Assembly: GCF_019931275.1 (NCBI RefSeq)
Contig: NZ_JAIOTY010000001.1
Location: 1,054,001-1,118,000 of the forward strand
Direction: 5' to 3'
Source: Nitratidesulfovibrio sp. SRB-5
GTDB lineage: Bacteria > Desulfobacterota > Desulfovibrionia > Desulfovibrionales > Desulfovibrionaceae
Length of the DNA stretch: 64,000 nucleotides
Shown: positions 3,532-7,263 of the stretch, in pieces
How positions within the stretch are numbered: position 1 is the stretch's first letter
How the letters are laid out: the number at the start of each line of letters is the position of its first letter
Notes under the pieces: generated by a model
Database searches by the model: none
Seen by the model: the letters and a program-made list of their open reading frames with translations, nothing else
What the model was told of the DNA's origin: nothing
Program-made: the position numbers and the translations under genes

Positions 3532-3798
3532 CTACACTAGGTAGCCGCAGGAATGGATGATGTTCTTGCGCAGGGTGCGCCCCTTCCAGACCGCCTCGGG
3601 GCCTTCGCTGCGGATTTCCTCGCTCACGATGTCGCGCAGTTCGCGCATCTGTGCGTCGGTGAGTTGCAGGCGAGTCATGTCACCCATGAGTTCCAGCGGG
3701 TCAGACCAGCAGGTGGGCATGGGTTCGTCCTCGTTGTGGTAGAGGTAGTAGATCACACACTCGCCAACGGGCTGCAACTTCTCCAGAAAATCCTTCAT
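3532..3798 (-). CDS. unrecognised 88-residue protein behind a SAM riboswitch
   Basis: I do not recognise this family. The start at 3798 (MKDFLEKLQ) was preferred over an upstream in-frame ATG at 3873 because AAAAAAGGGAGACACG, a good ribosome binding site, precedes it. The product is acidic and probably soluble, with no signal peptide or membrane segment. It holds three cysteines (GECVIYY, PTCWSDP, HSCGYLV) and a predicted helical middle (LTDAQMRELRDIVSEEI). It is the only gene downstream of the SAM riboswitch at 4085-4206, so it should be made when S-adenosylmethionine is low, if the riboswitch works as in its relatives. A role in methionine or SAM metabolism is inference from that context only. 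Confidence 0.75.
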   Translation of the reverse strand: MKDFLEKLQPVGECVIYYLYHNEDEPMPTCWSDPLELMGDMTRLQLTDAQMRELRDIVSEEIRSEGPEAVWKGRTLRKNIIHSCGYLV

Positions 3799-4046
3799 CG
3801 TGTCTCCCTTTTTTCCGCGAAGCCGTCCGGGCTTCGCGTGGTCAATCCGCCGGGGGCTGGTCCGGCGGACCACCGTGCGCCCTTGGGCTGTCCGCCGTCC
3901 CGCCGGATGTTCCGGCTGGGTGTGTGGCGGCCCCCGTGGCGCAACGGCCTGTTAGCTGCATTTTTTTTCTGTGGGTGCGCAATTGGCCTGAAATCCACCC
4001 ACATGCACCGTGCGGCTCCAGCGTCCGGACGATGCCCCCAAAACAG
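3799..4046 (-). other. structured leader between SAM-riboswitch terminator and the 88-residue gene
   Basis: About 250 bases of untranslated RNA on the minus strand with no open frame of note. Three inverted repeats are visible: TGTGGGTG/CACCCACA (3970-3977 with 3996-4003), TCCGCCGG/CCGGCGGA (3846-3853 with 3862-3869), and a 9-bp CGCGAAGCC/GGCTTCGCG hairpin just upstream of the ribosome binding site. An A8 run (T8 on the plus strand, 3961-3968) also stands out in this GC-rich genome. Confidence 0.55.
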
Positions 4047-4070
4047 AAAAAGCCCCTCGCAAGGAGAGGC
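4047..4070 (-). terminator. riboswitch expression-platform terminator
   Basis: Read on the minus strand, GCCTCTC, a short CTTGC loop and GAGGGGC form a 7-bp stem (one G-T pair) followed by TTTTTCTGTTTT. It lies just past the SAM aptamer. Its 5' arm is also complementary over 7 bases to GAGAGGC at the 5' edge of the aptamer (4197-4191), which could give the competing antiterminator. Confidence 0.85.
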
Positions 4071-4084
4071 CGACGCCGCAAGCC

Positions 4085-4206
4085 CGCGATCATGATCCCG
4101 TGCGCTACACGGTCGGTATTGGCACCTTGTCCCGACCGACGGCGTCACGTCAGGGCAGGTTGCCGGGCGGTCACAGGGCCGTACCCTCGCGCCTCTCTCC
4201 ATGAAT
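4085..4206 (-). promoter_or_regulatory. SAM-I (S-box) riboswitch aptamer
   Basis: On the minus strand the conserved SAM-I blocks appear in order: AGAGAGGCGCGAGGG, then GGCCC..TGA, then CCCGGCAACC, then AAGGTGCCAATACC. Next come a P4-like hairpin (CCGTG/CACGG) and a short P1 (TCATG/CATGA). These are the kink-turn, pseudoknot and ligand-binding segments of the S-box family. Known relatives bind S-adenosylmethionine and turn off methionine and SAM genes by terminating transcription, and the terminator at 4047-4070 fits that. Here the downstream gene is not a known methionine gene. Confidence 0.92.
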
Positions 4207-4212
4207 GGGGCA

Positions 4213-4241
4213 TATCTAGCGGTTGAGTGCACAGTTGTCAA
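4213..4241 (-). promoter_or_regulatory. sigma-70 promoter of the SAM riboswitch transcript
   Basis: A perfect -35 box TTGACA (4241-4236), a 17-base spacer and a -10 TAGATA (4218-4213) place the transcript start near 4206, at the 5' edge of the aptamer. Confidence 0.75.
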
Positions 4242-4670
4242 TGGTTAAGCAGGAAATCAGGAAATACTTGTATAGTAGCTTTTTTGGGATGATAGCGCGC
4301 ATAAAAAGTGGTCTCGTATAGTACCACTGCTGAAAAAATGTGACCGCGCGACCGGAAACCCGAAAAGGGGGGGGACGCGAAGCGTGAGTCCGGGCGACCG
4401 ATGGGCCGGGTGGGACCATGCGGTGGACTGGAAGGGTGCCGAACATACATGACAGGCCGGACGCATCGGACAGACAGGACAGGCCGGGTGCGCCGGGCGC
4501 ATCGGACAGACAGGACAGGCCGGGTGCGCCGGGCGGCCAGGGGGGCGGACCGCGTTGGATGCAGCCCCCGCCCGCCCCATCGTATGGTCAAGCGGGGCGG
4601 TATGGGGTAGTGGTTCCTGCGTACCGCACGTCCATCACGTCTTGCCCGCCACAGGAGAGCCCGCCGTCGC
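4242..4670. other. intergenic region upstream of murJ
   Basis: No gene is seen. The left part (4242-4340) is unusually A/T-rich, with two GTATAGTA-like segments and a small hairpin AGTGGT/ACCACT (4307-4328). A promoter reading towards murJ is plausible there, but no -35 box could be fixed. The right part is GC-rich and holds the 36-bp tandem repeat at 4463-4534. Confidence 0.5.
4463..4534. repeat. 36-bp tandem repeat, two identical copies
   Basis: Two perfect head-to-tail copies of a 36-bp unit beginning GCATCGGACAGACAGGACAG. The unit itself divides into four 9-base phrases (for example GGACAGACA, GGACAGGCC). It lies in the murJ leader. A 36-bp array with the same CAGACAGG word occurs beyond the other side of murJ at 6848-6919. 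Confidence 0.92.
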
Positions 4671-6287
4671 ATGAAGCTGTTCACCCGCACCCACCAGATG
4701 GGCGCCGCCGCCCTGATCATGGCGGCCAGCGTCTTTGCGTCGCGGTTCATGGGCCTCTTGCGCGACAAGGTCATCTCCTACCTGTTCGGGGCCACGGCAG
4801 AGGCGGACATCTACTTCGCCGCCTTCGTGGTGCCCGACTTCATCAACTATCTGCTGGCGGGCGGCTACTTCTCCATCACCCTCATTCCCCTGCTGTCGGA
4901 ACGCTTCGAGCGCGATCCGGAAGATGGCTGGCGCTTCTTTGCCGCCGCCTTCTGGTGGATCACCATCGTCATCTGCCTGATGACCGGCGTGGCCTGGTGG
5001 TACGCGCCGGAACTGGCCCGTGTGGCCGCGCCGGGCTTCGACGCACCGTCCACGGCCCGGCTGGTGCGCTTCCTGCGCATCATCCTGCCCGCGCAGGCGT
5101 TCTTTCTGCCGGGGGCGTGCGTCACCGCGCTGCTGTACATGCGCCGCCAGTTCGCGGTGCCCGCCATGGGGCCGCTGGTGTACAACGGCTGCATCATCGG
5201 CGGCGGCGTGCTGTCGTGGGCGCTGGCCCCGGCGCGCGGCATGGAGGGGTTTTGCTGGGGCGTGCTGGCGGGCGCGGCGCTGGGCAGCCTTGCCTTGCCC
5301 GTGCTGGCCGCCGCGCGCGGCGGCGGGGTGCGGCTGCGTCCGGTGCTGCGCCACCCCGGCGTGCGCCGTTTCGCCCTGCTGGCCCTGCCCCTGATGATCG
5401 GTCAGTCGGTGGTGGTGCTGGACGAGCAGTTCGTGCGCATCTTCGGTTCCATGACCGGCGAAGGGGCGGTGAGCCTGCTCAACTATGCCCGGCGCATCAT
5501 GCTGGTGCCGGTGGGCGTGGTGGCCCAGGCCGCCGGGGTGGCCTCGTACCCGTTTCTGGCGGCGCTGGCCGCCAAAGGGGAGTCCGACGCCTTCGACGCC
5601 ACCCTGTCCACGGCCCTGCGCAACGCCCTGGCGGTGATCATCCCCCTGTCCGTGTGGATGCTGCTGGCGGCGGAGCCCACCATGCGCCTGATCTTTCAGG
5701 GCGGCGGGTTCGCCGCCGCCGAGACGCTGGCCTCCGCGCCCCTGTTGCGGGTGATGCTGTGCGGCGTGGCCTTCTGGGCCGTGCAGCAGGTGGTGGGCCG
5801 GGCCTTCTACGCCCATCAGGACACGGTGACCCCGGCGGTGGTGGGCACCCTGGCCACCCTGGCCGCGCTGCCGCTGTACGTGCTGGCGGGCCACGCGGGC
5901 ACGCGCGGCACGTTGGGCGTGGCCGTGGCGGGCACGGTGGCCGTGGCCGTGTATACCGTGGCCCTGGCCCTTGTGTGGCGCAGGCGCCATGGGGGGGGCG
6001 GACTTTCCGGCATTATCGGGTGCGGCGCGAAATCTGTGGCTCTGTGCGCCGCCGCCGCGCTGCCCGCCTGGCCCGCGCTGGCGTATGCGCCGCTGCTGGC
6101 CCCGGCCAGCCCGGCAGGCCAGTTGTGGGGGGCATTCCTGGCGCTGGCCGCCAGCGGACCGGTGTTCGCCGGGGCATATCTGCTGCTGGCCCGCCGCTTC
6201 GCCCCGGAACTGGCGGAACCGGTACTGTCGCGGGTGCGCCCGCTGCTGGCGCGCCTGCGGGGTGGGCGGCAGGGGGAAGACCTGTAG
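4671..6287 (+). CDS. murJ: lipid II flippase MurJ (MviN)
   Basis: MurJ flips lipid II across the inner membrane for peptidoglycan synthesis. The 538-residue product matches family length and is hydrophobic throughout, consistent with about 14 membrane helices. The N-terminal signature is clear: MAASVFASRFMGLLRDKVIS followed by YLFGATAEADIYFAAFVVPD. A conserved cytoplasmic segment EGAVSLLNYARRIMLVPVGV lies near residue 265. The start at 4671 follows CAGGAGAGCC with somewhat long spacing. It stands alone on the plus strand; the next genes are convergent, separated by a two-way terminator. Confidence 0.95.
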   Translation: MKLFTRTHQMGAAALIMAASVFASRFMGLLRDKVISYLFGATAEADIYFAAFVVPDFINYLLAGGYFSITLIPLLSERFERDPEDGWRFFAAAFWWITIVICLMTGVAWWYAPELARVAAPGFDAPSTARLVRFLRIILPAQAFFLPGACVTALLYMRRQFAVPAMGPLVYNGCIIGGGVLSWALAPARGMEGFCWGVLAGAALGSLALPVLAAARGGGVRLRPVLRHPGVRRFALLALPLMIGQSVVVLDEQFVRIFGSMTGEGAVSLLNYARRIMLVPVGVVAQAAGVASYPFLAALAAKGESDAFDATLSTALRNALAVIIPLSVWMLLAAEPTMRLIFQGGGFAAAETLASAPLLRVMLCGVAFWAVQQVVGRAFYAHQDTVTPAVVGTLATLAALPLYVLAGHAGTRGTLGVAVAGTVAVAVYTVALALVWRRRHGGGGLSGIIGCGAKSVALCAAAALPAWPALAYAPLLAPASPAGQLWGAFLALAASGPVFAGAYLLLARRFAPELAEPVLSRVRPLLARLRGGRQGEDL

Positions 6288-6380
6288 GCGGGCGGCTGAC
6301 GGGCGACCAACGGACGGCTGACGGGCCCCGGCGGTATCGAATTCCGCCCGGCTTCCGTGCGACAGCCGGATCACATGAGA

Positions 6381-6412
6381 AAGCCTCCGCTGCGTCACCG
6401 CAACGGAGGCTT
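6381..6412. terminator. bidirectional terminator between murJ and the next gene
   Basis: AAGCCTCCG and CGGAGGCTT pair over 9 bp around an inner GCG/CGC hairpin. With flanking A and T residues it could end both murJ (plus) and the minus-strand gene finishing at 6443. Confidence 0.75.
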
Positions 6413-6442
6413 CAGTGCATGAAAGGACCGGCAGACGGCCTG

Positions 6443-6820
6443 TTACTGTTCGAGGCCGCCTTCGCCTTCGTACATCATGCCGCCTTCCTCTTCCATCTCC
6501 AGGGTTTCCACCTTTTCCTCCAGCCATTCCAGAACGGCACGGGCGGTGTGGTAGTTCAGCACCACCTTGGAGCGGATGTGGCGGGTGATCACCTTCAGGT
6601 TTTCGTCGTAGGGGGCCACCTCGTGGCCGAAGCTGCCGTCGGGCGCCACCAGGCGCTCGGAAAACGGCGGCATCTTGTCGGTTTCTATGTAGAAGCTCAT
6701 TTCGATCTCGCCCTGCGGGTTGATGCCGCCCCACACGCCGTGGGCGTATTCCAGGCGCACGCCGGGATCGTGCTCGTATTCGTAGCGGATGCGGGTCGGG
6801 TATTTCGGGTCCTGACTCAT
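6443..6820 (-). CDS. conserved-looking protein of unknown function (125 residues)
   Basis: Unrecognised. The start at 6820 (MSQDPKYPTRIRYEYEHDPG) follows AAGGAGCGTCC and is preferred over the longer frame to 6952, whose extra N-terminus is simply the translated 36-bp repeat. The protein is acidic and soluble, with strand-like segments (GEIEMSFYIETDKMPPFSER) and an acidic, Met/Gly-rich tail (EEEGGMMYEGEGG). A tidy ribosome binding site and terminator support it as a real gene. Two more small genes of unknown function follow upstream on the same strand. Confidence 0.75.
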   Translation of the reverse strand: MSQDPKYPTRIRYEYEHDPGVRLEYAHGVWGGINPQGEIEMSFYIETDKMPPFSERLVAPDGSFGHEVAPYDENLKVITRHIRSKVVLNYHTARAVLEWLEEKVETLEMEEEGGMMYEGEGGLEQ

Positions 6821-6847
6821 GGACGCTCCTTGGGAAAGTATGGGACC

Positions 6848-6919
6848 GGCCAGACAGGCCATATCCGCCAGACAGACCGGATTCGCCAGGCAGGCTATAT
6901 CCGCCAGACAGGCCGGATT
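6848..6919. repeat. 36-bp tandem repeat, two near-identical copies
   Basis: Two copies (6848-6883 and 6884-6919) of a 36-bp unit differ at only a few bases. Each is built of 9-base phrases (CAGACAGGC, CATATCCGC, CAGACAGAC, CGGATTCGC). It lies immediately upstream of the ribosome binding site of the gene at 6443-6820. Confidence 0.9.
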
Positions 6920-6966
6920 CGCCGGAACTGGCAGACGCGCCGGAATCGGCAAGGCCGGTTGCCGCG

Positions 6967-7263
6967 TCAGCCGATCAGCGAGACCAGCGTGCCCGCGATG
7001 CGTTCAGGCACCACCAGCGGGCTCTGGTGGCGGGTGTCGCCCCTGGGCGGGCTGTAGCCCGCGCGTTGCAGGCGCTGGCGTTCAGCCGCCGCATCGGCTT
7101 CCATGTCATCGACGACGATCTGGGTCTTGTCCAGCAGGGTGGGGGACGGCGGCGTCAGGTAGGGCGGGTCGTGCCACGGGTCGAGCGGAGCGGACATGGC
7201 CCGCAGCAGCCCTGGGCTCATGCGGCGCAGTCCTGGAAGCTGCATGGCGAAATCCGTGGACAT
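6967..7263 (-). CDS. small protein of unknown function (98 residues)
   Basis: Unrecognised. It starts MSTDFAMQLPGLRR after CGGAGGCGGAC, a good ribosome binding site. It is proline-rich (DPPYLTPPSPTLL), then has a charged helix (DDMEADAAAERQRLQRAG), and ends with a hydrophobic strand (ERIAGTLVSLIG). No signal peptide or membrane helix. It lies between two other minus-strand genes of unknown function, and the gaps of about 150 bases on each side make a single operon possible but not certain. Confidence 0.65.
   Translation of the reverse strand: MSTDFAMQLPGLRRMSPGLLRAMSAPLDPWHDPPYLTPPSPTLLDKTQIVVDDMEADAAAERQRLQRAGYSPPRGDTRHQSPLVVPERIAGTLVSLIG

Follow-up and report, generated by a model that had tools for sequence, protein, structure and literature searches.

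Why does the only SAM-I (S-box) riboswitch found in a Nitratidesulfovibrio genome guard a small protein that no database names? The question arises on the minus strand of a 64-kb stretch of DNA (the window, meaning the whole stretch that was analysed), where, reading from 4245 down to 3530, a TTGACA element is followed by a SAM-I aptamer, a terminator-like hairpin with its T tail, a leader and the gene for an 88-residue protein. A preliminary description of this DNA had placed a full S-box aptamer in front of an unrecognised small gene, and covariance analysis of the window (Rfam, cmscan, whole 64 kb) agrees, with a full-length RF00162 match at 4207-4087(-) whose score of 63.1 bits (E 2.6e-12) exceeds the gathering score of 44.4, upstream of a gene without known family. 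A search of the whole 4.12-Mb genome gave no other RF00162 match. The core strings of the aptamer (GGCAACC, AAGGUGC and GAGGG...GGCCC) are the same as those of copies upstream of metK and metX elsewhere in the family Desulfovibrionaceae. Because the same core lies upstream of panC-metK and metX in members of the family, SAM is the expected ligand, and the aptamer presumably binds it.

A likely promoter (4213..4241, minus strand), read from the sequence, consists of TTGACA at 4241-4236, a 17-nt spacer and TAGATA at 4218-4213. The preliminary description had called this a perfect TTGACA promoter, and that hexamer holds up: it and TAGATA are identical in all eight genomes of the genus, and TTGAC is present at a similar distance in most relatives outside it. 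TAGATA is a poor -10 element that matches the consensus at three of six positions, and the TTGACA/TAGATA pair did not pass a generic consensus promoter scan. The intrinsic terminator that had been noted after the aptamer was recovered by a terminator scan as a predicted element at 4040..4071(-), with a terminator-like hairpin at 4071-4051 followed by the T-rich tail TTTTTCTGTTT. In the predicted ligand-free fold, CUCUCC in the 5′ arm of the terminator pairs with GGAGAG near the 5′-end of the aptamer, a pairing that would correspond to the usual antiterminator logic of S-box leaders. The arrangement resembles known SAM-I (RF00162) systems in aptamer sequence and structure and in a terminator with a predicted competing antiterminator; it differs from them in preceding a small gene rather than methionine or SAM genes, and in being followed by a second aptamer.

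About 240 nt separate the terminator from the 88-codon gene (3532..3798, minus strand), whose Shine-Dalgarno sequence AGGGAG lies at 3809-3804. The post-terminator leader folds better than shuffled sequences (z -2.5), so that the earlier reading of a structured leader of about 250 bases stands as to structure; what it overlooked is a second, SAM-II-like aptamer within the leader. Between that aptamer and the gene is a long structured region (3799..3944, minus strand) that contains a hairpin at 3838-3830/3824-3816. This hairpin (window 3816-3838) is a perfect 9-bp stem followed by AAAAAAGGGAG shortly 5′ of the start codon; read on the plus strand, this interval is a T run and then the hairpin. 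Further upstream, at 4470-4570 of the window, two tandem copies of a GCGCCCGGCGCACCCGGCCTGTCCTGTCTGTCCGAT-like segment and a third, partial copy lie upstream of murJ.

The relationship between riboswitch and gene was followed in 247 Desulfovibrionaceae genomes, a sample of the family rather than the whole of it, by an RF00162 search together with a protein profile search built from 18 sequences. The 88-residue protein is encoded in 35 of these genomes, belonging to Nitratidesulfovibrio, Halodesulfovibrio and a genus designated g8, which we take to be Maridesulfovibrio-like. A SAM-I aptamer is found directly upstream on the same strand in every one of the 35, with the gene 130-330 nt downstream; no copy of the protein without a SAM-I riboswitch was found among the 247 family genomes, and no further copy turned up in a phylum-wide sample of 297 genomes. 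Given this linkage, and the absence of any copy without the riboswitch, the SAM-I riboswitch by all signs controls the small gene in cis. The genes murJ and a HAD phosphatase gene are neighbours in Nitratidesulfovibrio and Halodesulfovibrio, and unrelated genes take their place in g8 and in a fourth genus, g14; the different neighbours in g8 imply that the gene travels with its leader and not as part of an operon. The neighbours yielded no functional lead in Nitratidesulfovibrio, Halodesulfovibrio, g8 or g14. The comparison across Desulfovibrionaceae that the preliminary description had proposed places SAM-I immediately upstream wherever the gene was detected.

The protein itself is as unfamiliar as had been claimed. 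Members of the family are 88-90 residues long and were found by these searches only in Nitratidesulfovibrio, Halodesulfovibrio and g8; the most conserved part is a C-terminal RxxRKNxIxSxG motif, and 21 residues are invariant across genera. The AlphaFold model (pLDDT 85.6) is mostly helical. Searches of Pfam, NCBIfam and PHROGs gave no convincing match, and PDB sequences gave no match. For the model, Foldseek returned nothing below E 1, and the best VIA Z was 2.4. Within the genus, 11 codons vary by synonymous changes only and 5 with replacements, and on sequence evidence the gene is under purifying selection there. Three leads were set aside: a match to MethyTransf_Reg, touched by one of 18 members (E 0.016) and not repeated in the others, was not used; weak protein matches in genus g54 fall within a protein that we read as RNase R-like and were attributed to chance; and DVU1975, tried as a guess at the locus tag, was dropped because that gene of D. 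vulgaris Hildenborough encodes a chemoreceptor.

When the leaders were compared side by side, an extra conserved block emerged between terminator and gene. In order, it contains one strand of a G/C-rich stem, then GAUUU, a spacer of 6-8 nt and UUGC, followed by the returning strand of the stem, a run rich in A and finally GCUAA. In the window it occupies 3945..4005 on the minus strand, with stem P1 at 4003-3996/3977-3970, GAUUU at 3995-3991, UUGC at 3982-3979, an A-rich L3 and GCUAA at 3956-3952; a further pairing, P2b, joins 3988-3985 to 3949-3946 (GGCC/GGCC). The pattern GATTT-N-TTGC-N-GCTAA is present in 37 of 49 SAM-I leaders and occurs once elsewhere in 817 kb, both strands being counted in that length. 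Of the 35 leaders that precede the 88-residue gene, 34 contain it, as do all three leaders of g14, where it stands upstream of an unrelated gene; the panC-metK, metX and ADP-ribosylglycohydrolase leaders all lack it. The g14 gene encodes a protein of 145-149 residues (loci L052, L054 and L058) that is found only in that genus and has no Pfam match; the suggestion that the 149-residue protein might be a relative of the 88-residue family was rejected after a comparison that showed no relation. One Halodesulfovibrio genome (G028, locus L060) has the SAM-I aptamer and the small gene without the SAM-II-like element, and so offers a natural deletion.

A covariance model, R1, was built from 22 of the element sequences with no known SAM-II sequence included. 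Its scores, partly a product of how it was built, span 44-79 bits over all 37 elements, and the copy in the window (4005-3945) reaches 63.2 bits. Over whole family genomes, R1 matches with E < 1e-6 (R1 E-values are rough) are these 37 only, and all of them lie behind SAM-I aptamers. Weaker matches in G217, G213, G192, G108 C6, G160 and G353 were rejected, the core not being kept or the match falling in coding or tRNA-adjacent DNA.

The resemblance to SAM-II was approached from both directions. In permissive mode, Rfam places RF00521 or RF01726 on the second element: the best copy, in G106, reaches 27.9 bits with RF00521 (E 0.0037) against a cut-off of 36, three other genomes give about 19-20 bits, and the copy in the window gives 13.6 bits with RF00521 (cut-off 36) and 15.9 bits with RF01726 (cut-off 44). 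No copy attains the gathering score of either family, so that by the Rfam rule the element is not a member, and standard Rfam annotation misses it because its scores lie below the cut-offs. In the reciprocal direction, R1 finds the two over-cut-off RF00521 copies of G542 (E 7e-5 and 2e-4). Those two are the only copies over the cut-off in the 297 phylum genomes, where weaker ones also occur, and none of the RF00521 matches in that sample shows the tandem arrangement. As a separate observation, the two over-cut-off SAM-II riboswitches of G542, a member of the Desulfobacterota, lie upstream of similar proteins of 280-310 residues (L142 and L150) to which no function was assigned.

A structural survey of SAM-II lists U10-U12, U20, U21, G22, C23 and G42-A46 as completely conserved (PMC3764141). 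The equivalents of all these positions are invariant in the 26 distinct sequences of the second element, and among them are U44, which contacts the adenine, and the base triples that surround the sulfonium. In P1, five pairs show changes in both partners, in an alignment that was fitted to P1 and on which this covariation leans; P2b was not used in R1. Across the whole structure, 79% of cells are paired. Covariation amounts to 0.197; shuffles gave 0.087, and slid controls no more than 0.10. The partners in P2b differ by clade (GGCC/GGCC in the window, and elsewhere AGC/GCU, GAC/GUC, GCG/CGC, GGC/GCC or GG/CC). Partners from one clade pair better than partners taken across clades, only 7 of 720 permutations doing as well; P2b is weak in several g8 copies. 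Together, P1 and P2b give the element the predicted form of an H-type pseudoknot, and from the conserved pocket and pairing we infer that it binds SAM.

One contact is an exception. In SAM-II, A47 contacts the methionine part of SAM through its amino and carboxylate groups (PMC3764141). At the equivalent position the adenine is retained in g8, in g14 and in Halodesulfovibrio copies of the long type, but Nitratidesulfovibrio has C (C3951 in the window) and the short Halodesulfovibrio copies have U or G. The loss of A47 in these two clades might have shifted the second aptamer to another ligand, such as decarboxylated SAM or S-adenosylhomocysteine, making the leader a two-input gate that weighs SAM against a SAM product, an idea that we regard as quite unlikely. 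The A47 variants are in any case natural material for testing ligand recognition.

These observations make it likely, in our judgement, that this leader works as a SAM-responsive OFF switch with two aptamers, in which termination at SAM-I and a second, SAM-II-type aptamer both lower expression of a small-protein gene that is made only at low SAM. At high SAM, the SAM-I aptamer would fold, the competing antiterminator would be lost and transcription would stop at 4071-4040. Transcripts that escape would carry the divergent SAM-II-type pseudoknot, which would bind SAM or a close relative and reduce expression at a post-transcriptional step, initiation of translation being the likeliest, so that the gene product would appear only when SAM is low. 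Judged by its control, that product would be a small helical protein that is probably an adaptor or regulator in the methionine/SAM economy. The OFF direction, and the stage of expression on which the second aptamer would act, are our inference. The distance from this aptamer to the start codon ranges from 19 to about 150 nt (19 nt from the AUG in G216, which has a shorter leader), and the terminator scan found no terminator after it in the window; from these two facts, action on translation or on the leader RNA is the most economical guess. For remote control of translation there is a precedent in a SAM-II riboswitch of Sinorhizobium (PMC9373788). Masking the pocket of the second aptamer in folding produced no consistent change in exposure of the Shine-Dalgarno sequence, and folding revealed no clear expression platform for the second aptamer.

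A simpler account would have SAM-I alone sense SAM, with the second element a conserved structured RNA that resembles SAM-II and serves another purpose, such as mRNA stability, ribosome standby or protein binding. The sub-cut-off Rfam scores, the predicted lack of effect on the Shine-Dalgarno sequence and the survival of gene and SAM-I after loss of the element in G028 all fit such a role. We nevertheless consider it unlikely, since every nucleotide that forms a SAM-II base triple, like the contact U44 (positions from PMC3764141), is the same in 26 distinct sequences, the element and true SAM-II RNAs detect one another, and the element is found only behind SAM-I aptamers. Doubt could also be cast on the first aptamer, which might be a SAM-I-like variant for some other ligand, as in the spermidine class derived from SAM-I. 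A target gene without known SAM role is the usual hint of such a variant, and spermidine variants exist (PMC10853860); the identity of the core strings with those upstream of metK and metX, and a neighbouring SAM-II-type element that points to the same ligand, make this explanation very improbable.

The other possibility raised in the preliminary description was that of an orphan riboswitch whose terminated transcript acts in trans as a small RNA, the downstream gene being incidental. The perfect linkage to the gene in three genera with different neighbourhoods, the adjoining second aptamer and the purifying selection on the gene all speak against it, even though termination would release an RNA of ~165 nt and the gene has no known sulfur role. 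Cis linkage explains the observed pattern and nothing requires action in trans, which is a most improbable reading; a small RNA may arise as a by-product of termination. The companion proposal, that the protein may belong to sulfur-methyl metabolism, is suggested by its regulation alone.

Leaders of the kind favoured here, with two SAM-sensing aptamers on one transcript, have precedents. A 2022 survey of tandem riboswitches counted 149 pairs of SAM-II and SAM-V, seven of SAM-II followed by SAM-I/IV and two of SAM-I/IV followed by SAM-II, and such mixed-class SAM pairs were named bi-mechanism (PMC9481103). The present leader shares with them, as far as sequence features go, a single leader that combines SAM aptamers of two classes, the terminator coming first; it differs in having a canonical SAM-I in first place and a divergent SAM-II, in its distribution over four genera (37 genomes sampled) and in its small-protein targets. 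Compared with SAM-II proper (RF00521, SAM_alpha, and RF01726, the long-loop form), the second element has the same P1, GAUUU loop, UUGC, A-rich L3, GCUAA and P2b; it is divergent, scores below the Rfam cut-offs, has a P1 of up to 8 bp, does not keep A47 in two clades, and lies downstream of SAM-I in Desulfovibrionaceae and not in the groups named for RF00521 and RF01726. For the family itself, an earlier regulon study gave S-boxes for other delta-proteobacteria and not for Desulfovibrio (PMC545781). A single SAM riboswitch upstream of a hypothetical gene is described for Oleidesulfovibrio alaskensis G20 in the accessible part of PMC11124144, which resembles the present case in being one SAM-I in a Desulfovibrionaceae genome before an unrecognised gene and which, in that part, reports neither a second aptamer nor a gene family. 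No report of a SAM-II element in Desulfovibrionaceae was found in the literature searched. The kind of device is thus known; the combination, the divergent SAM-II variant, the conservation over four genera and the targets appear new.

That two structurally unrelated SAM-type sensors should converge on one gene implies that its protein is costly when SAM is abundant. The two sensors and this implied cost make the small gene a good candidate for a hitherto unrecognised component of methionine/SAM control in sulfate reducers, in which an early reconstruction did not find the usual genes of methionine synthesis (PMC545781). The leaders also illustrate that divergent SAM-II aptamers hide below the Rfam cut-offs.

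The 14 remaining SAM-I riboswitches among the 49 family leaders precede other genes, whose names given here are our own reading of the translations; three of them are the g14 copies before the 145-149-residue protein. Four Halodesulfovibrio genomes carry a second SAM-I riboswitch upstream of metX-metW-metY (L045, L048, L051 and L059); no terminator was seen by eye at the SAM-I of these leaders, which may therefore act on translation. Two near-identical SAM-I riboswitches on two contigs of G090 (L043 and L044) precede a gene that resembles those for ADP-ribosylglycohydrolase; such a target is unusual. In five Desulfovibrionaceae genomes (L042, L046, L053, L055 and L057, at about 4001-7000 of the oriented locus), SAM-I stands upstream of an operon of panC, a DUF502-like membrane protein gene and metK, an arrangement that ties pantothenate synthesis to SAM control.
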